From: Clostridia bacterium
GTDB taxonomy: Bacteria > Bacillota > Clostridia > Oscillospirales > Acutalibacteraceae
Assembly (NCBI GenBank): GCA_017517135.1
Contig: JAFXAK010000010.1
Location: 1 to 64,000 of the forward strand
Direction of reading: 5' to 3'
Length of the DNA stretch: 64,000 nucleotides
A program made the translations under genes and the position numbers. The notes under the pieces were generated by a model. It saw nothing but the letters and a program-made list of their open reading frames with translations, was not told where the DNA came from and ran no database searches. Numbering within the stretch: the first letter of the stretch is position 1; each line of letters starts with the position of its first letter. Shown in pieces: positions 18,161 through 32,290 of this stretch.

Positions 18161-19816
18161 TTAAAACTTTCCCTGTATAAGAGCCTTCAGAATATCGAAG
18201 AATATTGTGAAGAATCGGAATATAGCAGTAATCCTTGTTATAAATGTAGGTTCTTCGGTAGGATCGGAAAGCCACTCATAGTCCTCGCAGTTATCTTTTG
18301 TAAGAGGCTCTAATGCACCTGACTGATCCTTTTTTTCGTAATATCTCATAAACTGAGGATATTTTTCGGGATCAGTATCAATTGTAACATTTGTACCGTT
18401 AAGGAACCATCTTGCAATTTCATCACCGGGACGGAAGAAGCCGTGGTGTGAATTTTTGATAATCCATGTCGTATCAGGGAAGATACAGGTAGATGCATCA
18501 ACCACCTTGTCAACGGAAATATACTTACCTTTTCCTAAAGCCACACGCTCGGCAATATATTCTTCTGAAAGAGTTTTACCCACGCGGGCGGCAGTTGTTT
18601 TGTAGGCAGCATCCTCAAGTGCTACAGAAGTGTCACCCGTTTTGTTTGCATCTTCAGTAAGGGGAAGATCCATATAACCGTATTTTGCCTGGAAGCCTAC
18701 ATGAATACCGTACTCTGTTGTGTACTTGATATAAAGCTTATCAAGGTTCTTTGTAACATGATCTCTGTAATATTCAATCTTGTCAATAAGGCCTTTATAC
18801 TTTGTGCGAAGCTCAGAGCCTTCCTGACCGTATATAAGGTTAAGAGCTTCATCGAAATCCTCTTCATATACCATTGACCAATAATTTACCTGAGAAGCTA
18901 TGCCGGAAGCGTGAAGAAGAGAGGGCATAAGAGCCTTGTAAAGTCTATTGTAAAGCCTTTCAACGCTGTTCAGAGCAATGTCTGTAATATATACCTGGTT
19001 GAAGAATTCCATTGTTTTGTAAACGATTTCATACACAACATCGGTGATTTCAATACCGCCCTTGCCTATTTCATTAAGATGCTTGAGCTGACCTATATAT
19101 CTTTCGATTTCTGTTGCACTGAAATTAATTTTACCGCTCAATGCTTTACTTGCAAGAGTCTTACCGTTTGAAAGTGTATCACAGAACATTACATTCTTTA
19201 CTTTTTTCTTGCTACCGTGTTCCTCAAGGTAAGCCATAAGAAGGCTGCCGCCCATACATCTGGCAAAGATATTTACCTTACGAGCACCGGAGGAAGCGAT
19301 AATATCATCAATAAAGTCATCAAGTCTGTCAACATTGTCATAGGGAGAAAGACGCCAGTCGTAGATAAAATCATATTCTCCATAGATGCTTGCGTGTTTT
19401 GCATTGTATTCAGATTCAGCAAGGAGTTGTTGTGAAACAGTTACGCCGTTTTTTGAATTACCGTTTTCATCAAGGAATGCAGTCTCAAACAAGGGGGAAA
19501 TTTCGTCGTAAATAGCCTTACCGTAATTATCCCAGTTATCGAAAAGCATACCTTCGAGAACAAATGGCTTGAGGATGTTTACAACGGTTTCAACAATAAC
19601 ATCCTTGTCAATGCCACTATCATCACCGCCGAGACTGATATCGTTAATTTCAGCTGCAACGGGATTGCCGTCAGCATCGTAAAGCTTCTCACCGTTACCG
19701 CGGATATATATTATAGGAAGTCTTTCCTCTACATAAGTATCCGCTGCTGAAACGGCGGGAGCCATAATAGTCAGAAGCATAATTGCAGCAAGTACTACAG
19801 AAACAAGTTTCTTCAT
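18161..19816 (-). CDS. Secreted alpha/beta-hydrolase-like protein with Cys nucleophile elbow
   Basis: A 551-residue exported protein: signal peptide MKKLVSVVLAAIMLLTIM with cleavage after VSA (about residue 24). The first strand IIYIRGNGEKLYDADG and the later FIYDWRLSPYDN followed by KVNIFARCMGGSLLMAYL (181-198) look like a lipase of the LCAT/esterase type, where the nucleophile elbow is G-x-S-x-G. Here it reads A-R-C-M-G, so Cys187 would replace Ser, as in dienelactone hydrolases. A HHGFFRPGDEIARW segment near the C-terminus could supply the His. The last 25 residues are a hydrophobic aromatic amphipathic segment like the tail of the 1808-residue protein. Function is not established; substrate may be a lipid or polyester. 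Transcribed alone. Confidence 0.78.
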   Translation of the reverse strand: MKKLVSVVLAAIMLLTIMAPAVSAADTYVEERLPIIYIRGNGEKLYDADGNPVAAEINDISLGGDDSGIDKDVIVETVVNILKPFVLEGMLFDNWDNYGKAIYDEISPLFETAFLDENGNSKNGVTVSQQLLAESEYNAKHASIYGEYDFIYDWRLSPYDNVDRLDDFIDDIIASSGARKVNIFARCMGGSLLMAYLEEHGSKKKVKNVMFCDTLSNGKTLASKALSGKINFSATEIERYIGQLKHLNEIGKGGIEITDVVYEIVYKTMEFFNQVYITDIALNSVERLYNRLYKALMPSLLHASGIASQVNYWSMVYEEDFDEALNLIYGQEGSELRTKYKGLIDKIEYYRDHVTKNLDKLYIKYTTEYGIHVGFQAKYGYMDLPLTEDANKTGDTSVALEDAAYKTTAARVGKTLSEEYIAERVALGKGKYISVDKVVDASTCIFPDTTWIIKNSHHGFFRPGDEIARWFLNGTNVTIDTDPEKYPQFMRYYEKKDQSGALEPLTKDNCEDYEWLSDPTEEPTFITRITAIFRFFTIFFDILKALIQGKF

Positions 19817-26637: not shown

Positions 26638-27936
26638 TTAATGCTTCAGATTTCCGTTTGCGGGATTATCTAAAACATTTCCGCTCTCGTCAAATCTTGA
26701 GCCGTGACACGGGCAGTCCCAGGAATGTTCGGCTTTATTCCATTTGAGCGCACAGCCTAAATGCGGACATCTTTTCCCTGAAAAGGTCAATAGGCTTTTT
26801 ATGCTTTCCGCTCCGTTTATAAACAGTTGAGGTGTTAAAATGCTTCTTGAGGTATTAAAGATATCCGCATATATATTCTTTTTACCGAGAACTAAGTCTG
26901 TAAGCAGTATTGCAGAGAGCATAGCTGAAGTCATACCCCATTTGTTAAAGCCGCTTGCAGCATATAAATTCGGGGTGTTCTTTGAATAGACACCTATATA
27001 CGGCATTGTGTCAAGGCTCATACAGTCCTGTGCCGCCCAGCAAAGCACTTCCTTTGCATCGGGATAATTTACTGCGGCAAATTGCCGAAGCTCCTGCCAA
27101 TTTCCGCCCTTTTGTCCTGTGCGGTGTGCCCCGCCGCCAAGTAAAAGCAGATTTTTATAATTTCTGAAGGATAAGCCCTTTTCATCAGAATCAAGATACA
27201 TTCCGTCAAGCTCAGGAGCGTTTTGGAGTGCCGTTACATAAGAACGGTTCTGATAAAGCTTCAGAGAAAAAAGTCCGTGCTTGTTTATAAAAGGGAAGTG
27301 AGTTGTAACTATCACATTTTTTGCTGAAATCCTGCAGTTATCGGTAACTGCCGTGTTTCCGATCATCTCTTTTACAAAGGTGTTTTCGTATATATTAAGA
27401 TCATTGCAGATTGAAGACACAAATTTAAGCGGGTGGAACTGTGCCTGATTAGGAAAACAGACAGCCCCCGAGGTCTTTATCGGCAAGGGTAAATTTTCCT
27501 TGAAAAGTGCGGAAAATCCGATTTTATTGAGAGCGGTAAGCTCTTCTTCAAGCCCTTTTGTTGTTTTTGTGCTGTATATAAAATTATCCTTTGTTTCAAA
27601 ATCACAATCCGCGGTATTGCAGATTTTACAAAGAGCATCAAAAGCCAGCATATTTGCTTTGAGATATCCCTGTGCAATTTCCGTGCCTTTGTTTTTCAAT
27701 AACTTACTGTATATAAGCCCGTGCTGATATGTGATTTTTGCTGTGGTGTTCTGAGTAGTCCGGCTGCATATTCCGGTTTTTTCAACGAGTACATAATCAA
27801 TATTGTTTTTTGAAAGCAGATATGCAGTAAGAATACCCGCCATTCCGCCGCCGATTATAAGCACATCTGTTTTTATGTCTTTTTCGAGCTTAGGGAAGGA
27901 TTTTATTTTTATATTTTCAGTCCATACAGATTTCAT
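26638..27936 (-). CDS. FAD-dependent oxidoreductase with C-terminal Rieske domain
   Basis: A 432-residue protein. Residues 22-50 form the FAD-binding Rossmann motif (DVLIIGGGMAGILTAYLL), the body is of the D-amino-acid oxidase/glycine oxidase type (NLYAASGFNKWGMTSAM near 330), and the end carries a Rieske 2Fe-2S site: CPHLGC and CPCHGSRF. The two halves suggest electron flow between flavin and cluster; relatives are often annotated as DAO-Rieske proteins of unknown substrate. The frame extends upstream to 27993 with a Phe run; the start at 27936 has AAAGGTGA and is preferred. Unusual for an anaerobe, perhaps part of oxygen defence; no partner genes are adjacent. Confidence 0.92.
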   Translation of the reverse strand: MKSVWTENIKIKSFPKLEKDIKTDVLIIGGGMAGILTAYLLSKNNIDYVLVEKTGICSRTTQNTTAKITYQHGLIYSKLLKNKGTEIAQGYLKANMLAFDALCKICNTADCDFETKDNFIYSTKTTKGLEEELTALNKIGFSALFKENLPLPIKTSGAVCFPNQAQFHPLKFVSSICNDLNIYENTFVKEMIGNTAVTDNCRISAKNVIVTTHFPFINKHGLFSLKLYQNRSYVTALQNAPELDGMYLDSDEKGLSFRNYKNLLLLGGGAHRTGQKGGNWQELRQFAAVNYPDAKEVLCWAAQDCMSLDTMPYIGVYSKNTPNLYAASGFNKWGMTSAMLSAILLTDLVLGKKNIYADIFNTSRSILTPQLFINGAESIKSLLTFSGKRCPHLGCALKWNKAEHSWDCPCHGSRFDESGNVLDNPANGNLKH

Positions 27937-28098
27937 TTTTTTATTCACCTTTTTATATTCTGTGCAAAAAAAGAAGAAAAAAACGACCGTCATATTGTTA
28001 ATAAACTGTAAACTGATTATGAACTGAAAATTAACACTTTTTTAACAAAAAATGTATAAAAGTGCTTTTTTTTGTACAAAAGTGGCGATGATTGTATC

Positions 28099-28127
28099 TT
28101 GAAATGATAATCGAAGTGTGTTAAAAT
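28099..28127 (+). promoter_or_regulatory. Promoter of the condensation-adenylation-carrier operon
   Basis: TTGAAA (28099-28104) and TAAAAT (28122-28127), 17 bases apart, 31 bases upstream of the start at 28159. Confidence 0.68.
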
Positions 28128-28158: not shown

Positions 28159-29541
28159 ATGGGTAACACCTACGAGCTTATTCCCTCTCAGCAAACTATG
28201 TATCTTATGGTTAAGTACAGTCTGCATAAGCAGATAACACAGATACCGACCTCCATTTCCGTAGATTTTGATATTGACTTTAATCTGCTTACAAAAGCGC
28301 TCAATGTTGAATTTGAAAGAAATGATGCTCTGCGTCTTCGTTTCTTCAAAGAGGATAAGGTTGTAAAACAGAAATTTATTGATGAATACAAGGTTGATTC
28401 CGTGCCGGTTATGACCTTTAAGACTAAGGAAGAGCAGGATGCCTTTTTCGGCAAGGATGCTCAGAAGCCTGTGAAATTCCTTAAAGGCGAATGCTACAGA
28501 ATTATTTTCTTTAATGCATATAACGGTCAGAAGGGTATTTATCTGAATGTATGTCATCTTAATCTTGATGCAATAGGCATTCTCGTTTTCTATGTGGATC
28601 TGATGAGAGTGTATAAGGCACTTGCCGCGGGTGAAGAAATGCCGCCTGCTCTTAATAAGTATGAGGATTACCTTATCAAGGAATTGGCAAATCTTGCAAA
28701 TGAGAAAAAGCAGCAGAAGGCTGAAAAATTCTATAACGAATATTTCAGAAGGGGCGGTGAGCCCATTTATGCGGGTGTTCACGGTCCGGCATTCCTTGAA
28801 GCTGAAAGAAAGAAAAAGAAAAATCCCGATTTGCGTGTGCCTTCAGCATATAATCCCTTGCACGATAAGGCAGATTATATAACAAAGAAAATCCCTTCTG
28901 AGGATGCTAAGAAAATTCTTGAATTCTGCAAGGCAAACAGCACAGCCCCCGAATCTCTGCTTCTTATGGGCTACAGAACATATGCATCAAAGATAAACTA
29001 CAGAACTCCCGATGTGTTTATGCAGCTTATGTGCAGCAAGAGAATTACTTACAAGGATATGCAGACGGGCGGTTGTATGGCACAGCCCTTGCAGGTGCGT
29101 ACCATTATTGAGGAGAACAAAACCTTCAGTCAGGCTCTTGACGAGTTCCTTTCTGTAAGAACTCAGCTGTACAGACATTTATCATATCCCTATATTGCGG
29201 CAAGAGATTTGTCGAGAGATATTTTCGGATATGGACTGATTCAGGGCCCTGCCTGTATGATGTTCTCATGGCTTCCTATCCCCGTGGATACATTCAGAGA
29301 AATGAATCTTAAATTTGATTATAAGTTCTATAATCTCGGCAGATATTTCACTCCCTTGTATGCAATATGTCATCCCGATCCCGAAGATCTTGCATTGACC
29401 TGTAATTATATGTACAGAACAAAGCTTGTGAGTGCCGAAGATATTGAGGCTTTGCACACTAATGCGGTTAAGGTAATTCTCAAGGGTATTGAAAATCCCG
29501 ATATCACCGTCGGAGAATTGCTTGATATGGTTGACAGATAA
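28159..29541 (+). CDS. Free-standing condensation-domain protein
   Basis: A 460-residue protein of the chloramphenicol acetyltransferase/condensation fold. Residues 1-60 (LIPSQQTMYLMVKYSLHKQ, then LTKALNVEFERNDALRLRF) match the start of nonribosomal peptide synthetase C domains, and the active-site HHxxxDG appears as CHLNLDA at 132-138, keeping the second, catalytic His133 and Asp137 but with Gly changed to Ala. A mid-latch SKRITY / GGCMAQPL region lies near 295-315. Such a domain joins a carrier-bound acyl or aminoacyl group to a nucleophile. It stands alone rather than fused, and the next two genes encode an adenylating enzyme and a carrier protein, 23 and 18 bases apart, so the three should work as a dissociated one-module assembly line. 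Substrates are unknown. Confidence 0.82.
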   Translation: MGNTYELIPSQQTMYLMVKYSLHKQITQIPTSISVDFDIDFNLLTKALNVEFERNDALRLRFFKEDKVVKQKFIDEYKVDSVPVMTFKTKEEQDAFFGKDAQKPVKFLKGECYRIIFFNAYNGQKGIYLNVCHLNLDAIGILVFYVDLMRVYKALAAGEEMPPALNKYEDYLIKELANLANEKKQQKAEKFYNEYFRRGGEPIYAGVHGPAFLEAERKKKKNPDLRVPSAYNPLHDKADYITKKIPSEDAKKILEFCKANSTAPESLLLMGYRTYASKINYRTPDVFMQLMCSKRITYKDMQTGGCMAQPLQVRTIIEENKTFSQALDEFLSVRTQLYRHLSYPYIAARDLSRDIFGYGLIQGPACMMFSWLPIPVDTFREMNLKFDYKFYNLGRYFTPLYAICHPDPEDLALTCNYMYRTKLVSAEDIEALHTNAVKVILKGIENPDITVGELLDMVDR

Positions 29542-29564
29542 AATATTTTACAGAGGTATTTATA

Positions 29565-31313
29565 ATGGACAAAAAAGAAAAGCTGTATATAGATAACTTG
29601 CGTCACGATATTCATATGTTAGGTGATCTGCAGACGCTCAGAATGATTCTTGAAAGAATGGAAAATTACGGTGAGCGTCTTTGCATGGTTGAAAAGCACA
29701 AGGATAAGATTATTGAGCATTCCGTAAAGGATTTCAGAGAAGATGTATATGCTCTGGGAACAGCGCTGCTTTCAATGGGCTATAAGGGAAAGCATATTGC
29801 AATCTGCAGCGAGAACTCCTATTATTGGGTTGTTACTTTCTTTGCGGTTGCCTGCGGTGTAGGTATAAGCGTTCCCGTTGACAAGGAGCTTACCGATGAA
29901 GAAATCAGTGCTTTATTCACAAAAGCAGATGCCCAAGCAGTATTTTTCAGCAGAACATATTATAAAACCGTGCAGAAGCATATGGCTGCCGACGAAAGAT
30001 GCAAGTTAGGTGTTTGTCTTAATAAGGAATATGACGATGAAAACATCACAACAATAGAAAAGCTTATAGAAAAAGGCAAGCAGCTCATAAAGAACGGTGA
30101 CAGAGCTTATCTTGACGCAACTGTAGACAAGGATGATCTTGCAGCTATTGTTTTTACATCCGGTACAACGGGTGCAAACAAAGGTGTAATGCTTTCTCAC
30201 TATAATTTCTCCGTTACCGTAGACGGTGTACTCGAAACTATTGATCCCGATCAGTACAGCTCAATTTCGCTGCTTCCTATGAACCATGTTTACGAGTTTA
30301 CCTGTAATATCCTTACGGCTCTTTATATGAACTGTGTTATTTATGTCAATGATTCCCTTAAAAACTTTATGGCTAATGTTCAGCTTTTCAAGCCCGATGC
30401 ATTTGCTATAGTTCCTCTTGTAATTGACACAATGTACACAACAATATGGAATACAGCAGAAAAGAGCGGTAAGGCACCTATTCTCAGAAAGCTTCTTAAA
30501 TTCAGTAACTTCCTTATGGATCACGGTATAGATATCCGTCACATCTTATTCAAGACCATAAGCGACAAGTTCGGCGGAAAATTCCCCACCTTGTCCTGCG
30601 GCGGCGCTCCCTCAAGAACTGAGTATGTCAAGTGTCTTTGCGATATGGGCTTCAATATCTATAACGGCTACGGTCTTACTGAATCCTCACCCGTTGTTAC
30701 ACTTAATATGGACCTGAGAAATAAGCCTGACTGTGCAGGTAAGGCTTTCCCGAAGGCACAGTTCAAGATTGATTCTCCCGATGCAGACGGTGTCGGTGAA
30801 ATCTGGCTCAAGGGTGACAATGTTACCAGAGGCTACTATAAGGACGAAGCCGCAACAGCAGCATCCTTTGAGGACGGCTGGTTCAAGACAGGCGACTACG
30901 GCAGAGTTGACGAAGAAGGCTTGCTTTATATTGTGGGAAGAAAGAAAAATCTTATCATTCTTGATAACGGTAAAAACATATTCCCCGAGGATATAGAAGC
31001 ATTCTTTATGGAGAATATTGACTATATTACTGAGGTTGTTGTTTTTGAAGCAGAAAAGCAGGTCAACGGCAGACCTCAGAAGTTAATAGCTTCGGCATTT
31101 TATGTAAATCCCGAAAATGTTGAGAACAAAACTGAAGCCGAGATTTCAGAAATGCTCAACAAGGATGTTGAAAGAGTAAATAAAATGCTTCCTGCTTATA
31201 AGAGAACACAGGATATAATGCTGTCAACAACTGAGTTTGAAATAAACTCAACAAGAAAGGTCATAAGAAGCAAGGTTGTTGAGAGATATTATAAAAATTT
31301 AGAAAATGCTTAA
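29565..31313 (+). CDS. AMP-forming acyl/aminoacyl-activating enzyme (ANL superfamily)
   Basis: A 582-residue adenylating enzyme. Core motifs are present: IVFTSGTTGANKGVMLSH (A3, about 194-211), NGYGLTESSP (A5, about 366), GWFKTGDYGRVDEEG (A7, about 438) followed by GRKKNLIIL (A8), and a C-terminal NSTRKVIRSK with the catalytic Lys. Similarity is closest to long-chain acyl-CoA/acyl-ACP ligases, so the activated substrate is more likely a fatty or aryl acid than an amino acid, but this is not certain. It lies between the condensation protein and the carrier protein and should load the latter. GAGGT-type ribosome site. Confidence 0.93.
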   Translation: MDKKEKLYIDNLRHDIHMLGDLQTLRMILERMENYGERLCMVEKHKDKIIEHSVKDFREDVYALGTALLSMGYKGKHIAICSENSYYWVVTFFAVACGVGISVPVDKELTDEEISALFTKADAQAVFFSRTYYKTVQKHMAADERCKLGVCLNKEYDDENITTIEKLIEKGKQLIKNGDRAYLDATVDKDDLAAIVFTSGTTGANKGVMLSHYNFSVTVDGVLETIDPDQYSSISLLPMNHVYEFTCNILTALYMNCVIYVNDSLKNFMANVQLFKPDAFAIVPLVIDTMYTTIWNTAEKSGKAPILRKLLKFSNFLMDHGIDIRHILFKTISDKFGGKFPTLSCGGAPSRTEYVKCLCDMGFNIYNGYGLTESSPVVTLNMDLRNKPDCAGKAFPKAQFKIDSPDADGVGEIWLKGDNVTRGYYKDEAATAASFEDGWFKTGDYGRVDEEGLLYIVGRKKNLIILDNGKNIFPEDIEAFFMENIDYITEVVVFEAEKQVNGRPQKLIASAFYVNPENVENKTEAEISEMLNKDVERVNKMLPAYKRTQDIMLSTTEFEINSTRKVIRSKVVERYYKNLENA

Positions 31314-31331
31314 AATTGGGAGGAAAAGTAA

Positions 31332-31559
31332 ATGCTTGATAAAATCAGAAACATAATCTGTGAATTCGTAGATATGAAGCCCGAAGATATCACGCTTGAA
31401 ACAAACATCAGAACAGATCTCGGGCTCAATTCTCTTGAGCTTGTAAACCTTGCTGTTGAGATTGAGGAAGAGTTTGATGTTGAAATCCCCGACAGAGAAG
31501 CTATGGGACTGGAAACAGTTGCAGATGCTATCAAAATAATCGAGGAATATATGGATTGA
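31332..31559 (+). CDS. Acyl/peptidyl carrier protein
   Basis: A 75-residue four-helix carrier. The phosphopantetheine attachment Ser is Ser34 in the motif DLGLNSLELVNL, with NSL in place of the more common DSL. Acidic throughout, as in fatty-acid ACPs. It is the third gene of the operon and is followed by a terminator, so it is dedicated to this pathway rather than to the fab cluster. Its 4'-phosphopantetheine arm would be fitted by the transferase at 31676. Confidence 0.95.
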   Translation: MLDKIRNIICEFVDMKPEDITLETNIRTDLGLNSLELVNLAVEIEEEFDVEIPDREAMGLETVADAIKIIEEYMD

Positions 31560-31579
31560 TTTTCCGTATAAACACTTTT

Positions 31580-31613
31580 CAGAACCCGCTTTGACAGTGG
31601 GTTCTGTTTTTTT
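31580..31613 (+). terminator. Terminator after the carrier protein gene
   Basis: CAGAACCC (31580-31587) pairs with GGGTTCTG (31599-31606), followed by seven T. Confidence 0.92.
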
Positions 31614-31675
31614 GATTGAATTATATTTTTGTTTAAGGTATAATACTTTACAATAAGAAAAAAGACGGGAGTACG

Positions 31676-32290
31676 ATGATGGATTGTGTTTTCTCTGATG
31701 CTTCAATGCGGATATACAGGCTTAATATTTCAGATTTGTCGGATGAGGACTATACAAACGCTTTTTTTGATATGTCCTGTGAAAGACAAAAGAAATGTAA
31801 AGGCTACCGCTTTGCCGACGATAAAAAAAGATGCATAGCCGCAGATTTTTTAGTAAGAAAAATGCTTTGCGAAAGCCTTGATAAAAACACGGATGAAATT
31901 GAAATTTATACCGATGAGAACGGCAAGCCTTATGTGAATGAAAGTATATATTTTAATCTGAGCCATTCCGATAAATATGTTGCGGCGGTTGTTGCGGATA
32001 AGCCTGTTGGTATTGATATTGAAAAGATAAAATCCGTTAAATCAAATATGCTTGATTATTTTTGTTCCGAAAAAGACAAAAAATATATTCTCGGTGAAGA
32101 AAAAAGCGTATGCGAAGATGTACCTGAGAATGCACTCGAACGCTTTTTTGAGGTCTGGACCTTCAAGGAGGCATATCTGAAATGTACGGGAGAGGGAATA
32201 TCAAAAAAAGCCGCTGTTATAGATTTTGAAGCTTATGAAAAGTATCAGACTGTCTTTGACGGCTTCGTGCTTTGTGTTTTTTCGGAGTGA
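31676..32290 (+). CDS. Sfp-type 4'-phosphopantetheinyl transferase
   Basis: A 204-residue transferase that moves phosphopantetheine from coenzyme A to the Ser of carrier proteins. Conserved motifs: FNLSHSDKYVAAVV (about 92-105), VGIDIEKI (about 112-119) with the Mg-binding Asp and Glu, and WTFKEAYLKCTGEGI (about 160-174). The Sfp type is broad-range and is normally found with secondary-metabolite synthases rather than the AcpS of primary metabolism. A second ATG follows the first directly; the exact start is within one codon. It lies 116 bases after the carrier protein, behind a terminator and a TATAAT at 31639, so it is probably read from its own promoter. Confidence 0.93.
   Translation: MMDCVFSDASMRIYRLNISDLSDEDYTNAFFDMSCERQKKCKGYRFADDKKRCIAADFLVRKMLCESLDKNTDEIEIYTDENGKPYVNESIYFNLSHSDKYVAAVVADKPVGIDIEKIKSVKSNMLDYFCSEKDKKYILGEEKSVCEDVPENALERFFEVWTFKEAYLKCTGEGISKKAAVIDFEAYEKYQTVFDGFVLCVFSE

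Follow-up and report, generated by a model that had tools for sequence, protein, structure and literature searches.

A probable fatty acid amide cassette of separate condensation, activating and carrier proteins in a Clostridia bacterium, built on a distinct branch of free-standing condensation proteins

Introduction

In 2021 Chang et al. reportedly described gut Clostridia that make fatty acid amides (FAAs) with separate condensation (C), activating (A) and carrier (T) proteins. A cassette of this kind is considered here, located at positions 28,159 to 32,290 of a 64,000-nucleotide stretch (the window) from a Clostridia bacterium of the family Acutalibacteraceae (GenBank assembly GCA_017517135.1, contig JAFXAK010000010.1, positions 1 to 64,000 of the forward strand). 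The discovery of FAA clusters is credited to Chang et al. 2021 in PMC13142362, where OaaC from Coprococcus eutactus is presented as a free-standing C protein joining carrier-bound acyl groups to small amines, with released fatty acid amides formed in vitro together with separate A and acyl carrier protein (ACP) partners, named OaaA and OaaACP. The same source gives starter condensation domains as the class of nonribosomal peptide synthetase (NRPS) domain nearest to the FAA C domains, whose motif is (D/H)HxxxDS, with A at the last position in 36% of the published set (PMC13142362). A CTA operon, in which the carrier gene lies between those of C and A, has been reported from 36 species, all of them Lachnospiraceae, with a 70% identity cut-off (PMC13060934). 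Acyl amine production is reported to be higher in CTA-positive than in CTA-negative Blautia, and certain amines are reported to rescue Blautia growth under fatty acid stress or toxicity (PMC13060934).

The window locus resembles the FAA clusters in its free-standing C, fatty-acyl A and carrier and in having no offloading domain, and its C protein is homologous to OaaC over nearly the full length, with the motif His and Asp kept. It differs in that its C lies in a separate clade, the motif begins with C and ends with A, the gene order is C-A-T, and the genomes bearing this branch are without a detected beta-ketoacyl synthase. The CTA operon has the same three parts and gives acyl amines from fatty acids and amines in live bacteria; its gene order is different (PMC13060934). 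The window proteins would probably have missed the identity cut-off of the CTA survey. Starter C domains of lipopeptide NRPSs share the acyl donor (predicted in the case of the window), but they sit in a synthetase and use carrier-bound amino acids, whereas the window C stands alone; the canonical NRPS arrangement of C, A and T in one multidomain protein is replaced here by separate genes. The window cassette thus departs from the FAA and CTA descriptions in three descriptive marks, namely clade, first motif residue and gene order. The architecture was already known from human gut bacteria, and the distinct C branch is what is new. An earlier note, made from this DNA alone, presented the locus as a dissociated one-module assembly line; it is not an unrecognised kind, since such cassettes are in print. 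Judged by title and abstract opening, none of the matches listed in literature searches, PMC13142362 apart, appeared to concern such cassettes, which does not establish that the branch is new to the literature.

The cassette and its condensation protein

The locus comprises four open reading frames (ORFs), all on the + strand and each with a Pfam match above its own curated cut-off. They encode a free-standing condensation protein of 460 residues (28159-29541; Condensation, 2.5e-30, residues 3-454), an AMP-forming acyl-activating enzyme of fatty-acyl type with 582 residues (29565-31313; AMP-binding, 1.6e-55), an acyl carrier protein of 75 residues (31332-31559; PP-binding, 2e-16) with the phosphopantetheine site GLNSLEL, in which Ser34 was assigned by eye, and an Sfp-type 4'-phosphopantetheinyl transferase (PPTase) of 204 residues (31676-32290; ACPS, 3.1e-15). 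From the coordinates, the stop-to-start spacers are 23 bases between C and A and 18 bases between A and the carrier, while the PPTase starts 116 bases after the carrier. Just 3' of the carrier lies an intrinsic terminator-like hairpin with a stem of 11 pairs and a T run after it (31580-31606, + strand), from a scan that is weak taken alone, since the stretch scanned gave 4 such sites where chance would give 2.8. Among the ORFs of the operon, no thioesterase or reductase gene occurs between C and this terminator. The parts list of the earlier note (a C-fold protein with CHLNLDA and its His kept, A, a 75-residue carrier, both spacers, the terminator and an Sfp-type gene) is confirmed by the ORFs, Pfam and the hairpin scan, and its account of a trans-acting set with no offloading gene likewise holds.

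The best match of the window C protein in the Protein Data Bank (PDB) is 12KH, aligned over residues 5-457 of 460 with an E-value of 4.2e-46, the next chain reaching 1.4e-6. This entry is OaaC (PMC13142362), so that by sequence comparison the window C is nearer to an FAA protein than to any other solved C domain. Grouping with unrelated acyltransferases, which the earlier note had named as counting against its reading, was not found, the nearest kin being OaaC even though the branch is separate. The motif CHLNLDA occupies residues 132-138 (about 28552-28572) in place of the NRPS-type HHxxxDG, with His133 at the catalytic position and Asp137 as the Asp. All 79 aligned relatives retain the second-position His and the Asp, one further relative of the 80 being truncated there, and all 79 conform to the branch motif [SHCTIF]HxxxD[AN]; the first residue is S in 42, H in 12, C in 10, T in 9, I in 5 and F in 1, and the last is A in 67 and N in 12. 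An AlphaFold2 model of C built with 16 relatives reached a pLDDT of 94.5 and a pTM of 0.91. In a Foldseek search with this model, NRPS C domains make up most of the 50 matches listed, at query TM-scores of 0.68-0.80, and 12KH is not among these 50 (PDB copy to 8 April 2026). The model indicates a condensation fold and says nothing on substrate.

The activating enzyme

The leading family models for the window A are fatty-acyl ligases, all scoring under their cut-offs; the top NCBIfam model is long-chain fatty-acid CoA ligase (1e-61; 208.8 bits, below the cut-off of 476), against 1.2e-31, also below cut-off, for the amino-acid adenylation domain model. Among PDB entries the window A comes closest to fatty-acyl and related CoA ligases, and the FDxSVWE stretch is absent from it in an alignment with the genome's own NRPS A domain. 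On these comparisons A is predicted to load fatty acids on the carrier. The resemblance to fatty-acyl ligases proposed in the earlier note is thereby upheld; of the two donors which that note had allowed, an acyl group stands, with an acyl amide as the likely product, and an aminoacyl group is unlikely. Further AMP-binding and carrier-reductase proteins, resembling split acid reductases by eye, occur elsewhere in the same genome (L226:1375-5498 and L225:187-2736).

A separate branch of condensation proteins

A draw of 200 genomes from the window's family yielded 31 with a C match at the threshold of 1e-10 or better. At 35% identity or more to the window C there are 23 matches in 17 of the 200 genomes, which are called carrier genomes below; the remaining matches are at most 31% identical. 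A tree of 48 C proteins places all 23 rows of the branch, the window included, in one clade with support of 99/97. This tree holds no starter condensation domain and only two NRPS rows, which join it by long branches between the window clade and the OaaC group, where the deeper order is unsure. A second draw took 391 genomes from the class; C is matched at 1e-20 in 20 of them, the own genome among these, and no other genome exceeds 30% identity to the window C. A wider set of contig loci consists of the best 80 of 90 confirmed, with titles all of metagenome-assembled or uncultured genomes; some genomes contribute two loci, hence fewer than 80 organisms are represented. Hosts are named in 40 of the 80 titles and are all herbivores (goat 18, sheep 9, roe deer 5, water deer 2, buffalo 2, dairy cattle 2, yak 1 and horse 1), the other 40 titles naming none.

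The window's own genome (G000) encodes four free-standing C proteins matching the window C. A further branch C is found there in an A-C-T cassette (L010:6276-9448, contig C30). On contig C5 (L008:472-5310) an OaaC-like C (HHLAFDG) is part of an A1-C-T-A2 cassette whose two activating enzymes differ, an arrangement which recurs in L072 and L074. An NRPS protein of C-A-T composition is present beside a stand-alone AMP-binding enzyme on contig C3 (L011:123-5766), with ABC exporters recognised by eye.

Gene order and partners in relatives

Forty loci were fetched, of which 20 belong to the window's C branch and overlap with the 80 contig loci. Their order is C-A-T in 10, A-C-T in 7, and C-T, GH3-C and C alone in one each, and the carrier is beside C in 18 of the 20, which answers the earlier note's question of whether the order is conserved. 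Among the 80 contig loci the same-strand runs are C-A-T in 22, A-C-T in 18, C-T in 12, C alone in 8 and C-A in 5; rarer runs are C-A-T-PPTase (3), GH3-C (3), ABC-C-A-T (2), C-T-GH3 (2) and five kinds seen once each, with some runs broken by contig ends and at least one carrier missed under a longer ORF (L110), though recovered on that contig in the analysis of the fetched loci. C, A and T are thus kept together as a unit in many relatives. The C-T-A order of the FAA clusters is not that of the window (C-A-T), nor of the branch, which is mostly C-A-T or A-C-T. The window A is 41-68% identical to A of the other ten C-A-T loci, 29-31% to that of seven C-T-A loci and 25-28% to that of A-C-T loci. 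A single C branch is thus accompanied by ligases of two classes.

Downstream of the carrier, 11 of the 12 C-T loci, which have no A, encode one or two (two in 8 loci) related proteins with a signal-like start. Four of these putatively secreted proteins were scanned: one gave a sub-threshold LCAT match and one only fibronectin-type and minor domains. A catalytic-serine pattern occurs in only a few of them, and a lipase-like function is weakly supported.

The GH3-family acyl-amido synthetases form another set of neighbours. In the own genome (L009:3027-6162, contig C30) a GH3 protein adjoins a C that is 53% identical to the window C, with neither carrier nor A found beside the pair; pairs of this kind recur in L051, whose contig is one of 3 such cases among the 80 contig loci. 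GH3 shares a run with C in 6 of the 80 contig loci and stands beside C in L009, L051, L050 and L075, some of these being the same contigs. It is present in 13 of 17 carrier genomes against 10 of 183 non-carriers (Fisher 2.5e-11, relatedness not controlled). GH3 as a standing partner of C was rejected, as no C was labelled in 20 fetched GH3 stretches; these omit four known C-adjacent places (own C30, G138 C18, G056 C12 and G133 C17), several are cut by contig ends, and L211 has a weak carrier match. In L050 (3020-11999) GH3, C, A and T share an operon with an A-T-reductase-iron alcohol dehydrogenase fusion that is at least 1271 residues long.

Carrier protein, phosphopantetheinyl transferase and fatty acid synthesis

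The own genome has 7 PP-binding matches, the window carrier being one of them and the divergent L008 carrier not being included, so that the window carrier is not the sole carrier of the genome. One of the carriers (contig C25) has, by eye, ftsZ and proS as its flanking genes. A role of the window carrier in fatty acid synthesis was rejected because it is one of seven and because neither a beta-ketoacyl synthase nor a FabH C-terminal domain was detectable in the genome. The case that the earlier note had named as counting against its reading, a carrier that is the only fatty-acid ACP of the genome, is thus not what is seen.

PF01648 has a single match in the assembly, the window PPTase. Matches to it were found in 18 of 20 family genomes tested, as a single match in 16 of those 18, and not in G148 and G131; the ORF at the match has at least 200 residues in 14 of the 18 and 128-153 in 4. 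A frame of at least 200 residues is also present in 2 of 5 genomes chosen as cassette-free, and the PPTase adjoins the cassette in 4 of the 80 contig loci, all within the six closest. By itself the Sfp-type enzyme is consequently no pathway marker, and the earlier note's view that such enzymes serve specialised pathways is weakened for this gene. As the sole match here, and mostly a single match in family genomes, the enzyme is probably the general PPTase of the cell.

No PF00109 (beta-ketoacyl synthase) match was detected in the own genome, which is 94% complete, with controls positive in 14 of 14; the FabH C-terminal domain was absent from all 10 carrier genomes tested, the own one included, with controls positive in 11 of 14. 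Across the family draw, PF00109 matches occur in 0 of 17 carrier genomes against 72 of 183 non-carriers (Fisher 0.0004, relatedness not controlled), and by genus in 0 of 11 against 53 of 124 (Fisher 0.0035). A few of the 72 matches are weak (down to 4.2e-5) and may be other thiolase-fold enzymes. Genomes with only an OaaC-like C have the match in 10 of 14. It is also missing from 111 of the 183 non-carriers, so that absence of the synthase as a mark specific to carrier genomes was rejected. In total 128 of the 200 family genomes are without a PF00109 match, and a widespread loss of fatty acid synthesis in the family is suggested. The carrier genomes seem unable to make fatty acids themselves; since no synthase was matched in them, the fatty acids, if used, would probably come from outside.

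Other features of the window

Promoter-like sites are found upstream of C (TTGAAA-17-TAAAAT, 28099-28127, + strand) and before the PPTase (TTGAAT-17-TATAAT, 31616-31644, + strand), both from a consensus scan only, which returned 23 sites against 14.3 expected by chance, a number little above chance. An FAD-dependent oxidoreductase with a C-terminal Rieske domain (26638-27993) lies upstream of C and is divergently placed. Outside the cassette, a secreted (signal peptide by eye), possibly lipase-like protein (18161-19816, - strand) was recognised by sequence comparison; it is 27-29% identical to the protein after the carrier in A-less C-T cassettes of relatives and has several paralogues in the own genome.

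Discussion

Taken together, the cassette is real and conserved and probably works like the known FAA and CTA systems, and it is likely, on the evidence of sequence, that it joins an imported fatty acid to a small free amine and so yields an N-acyl amide. We infer the fatty acyl donor, the import of fatty acids, the amine acceptor and every biochemical step. In this scheme, the Sfp-type enzyme would attach phosphopantetheine to Ser34 of the carrier, and A would activate a free fatty acid as acyl-AMP and then load the carrier. C would bind the acyl carrier, with His133 letting a diffusing amine attack the thioester, so that forming the amide would at once release it. The likely benefit is the disposal or capture of fatty acids, and signalling is possibly a further one. 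The scheme draws on the kinship to OaaC, the fatty-acyl character of A, the kept C/A/T unit, the conserved His133 and Asp137, the confident fold and the missing beta-ketoacyl synthase, as well as on the amides that OaaC is described as forming in vitro (PMC13142362) and the acyl amines of CTA-positive Blautia (PMC13060934). The interpretation of the earlier note is partly supported as a whole.

Several observations weigh against the amide reading. OaaC falls outside the window clade, together with the C-T-A loci L064/L065 (96/89), and the window C, in its separate clade, is only 22-30% identical to OaaC-like relatives; its motif starts with C, where the FAA motif has D or H. In several branch cassettes A or the carrier is missing next to C, so the scheme does not always call for three parts. 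G148 is a carrier genome, 99% complete, yet without a PF01648 transferase match. The fused acid reductase/alcohol dehydrogenase of L050 could also supply a fatty alcohol as acceptor.

An unlikely alternative is that the cassette supplies membrane lipids to a cell without fatty acid synthesis, with A, carrier and PPTase turning imported fatty acids into acyl carrier and C making an amide-linked structural lipid instead of a small amide that is set free. The absence of synthase matches from all 17 carrier genomes and the single PPTase of the assembly would agree with this, and four matching free-standing C proteins in one genome would seem more than one signalling product needs. The nearest solved relative of C, OaaC, is nonetheless described as making released amides (PMC13142362), and the 111 synthase-less non-carriers also have no branch C, so that it need not stand in for the missing synthase.

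C-fold enzymes can form esters, and the L050 cassette, which follows GH3 and the fused reductase-dehydrogenase, would suit a C that moves the fatty acyl group to an alcohol rather than an amine. The reductase-dehydrogenase neighbour occurs in just 1 of 20 branch loci, however, and OaaC forms amides (PMC13142362), which makes ester formation less probable again than a lipid supply. An ordinary NRPS module split in three genes and making a peptide or aminoacyl amide, which C, A and T as parts of such a module might suggest, was rejected as very improbable on the scores of A, closer to fatty-acyl ligases, its missing FDxSVWE stretch, the absence of a thioesterase or reductase gene before the terminator and a C far nearer to OaaC than to other solved C domains.

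A broader proposal can be put forward tentatively, as more doubtful than amide formation by the window cassette. In herbivore-gut Clostridia without fatty acid synthesis, the separate branch of free-standing C proteins, with several per genome in some, would handle imported fatty acids with an exchangeable activating partner: an AMP-forming ligase of one or the other class, a GH3-type acyl-amido synthetase, or no such partner at all, its place being taken by a secreted protein that is possibly lipase-like. The products might then be main lipids or a fatty acid sink and not trace signals.

Host receptors are targets of N-acyl amides from gut bacteria. The producers described so far in the two sources are human-gut Lachnospiraceae (PMC13142362, PMC13060934). 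If amide formation by the window cassette is true, a separate branch in bacteria that seemingly do not make fatty acids themselves would add to the range of known producers and tie N-acyl amides to fatty acids from the diet, the host or neighbours. A role in fatty acid disposal would then be testable in organisms without fatty acid synthesis of their own.

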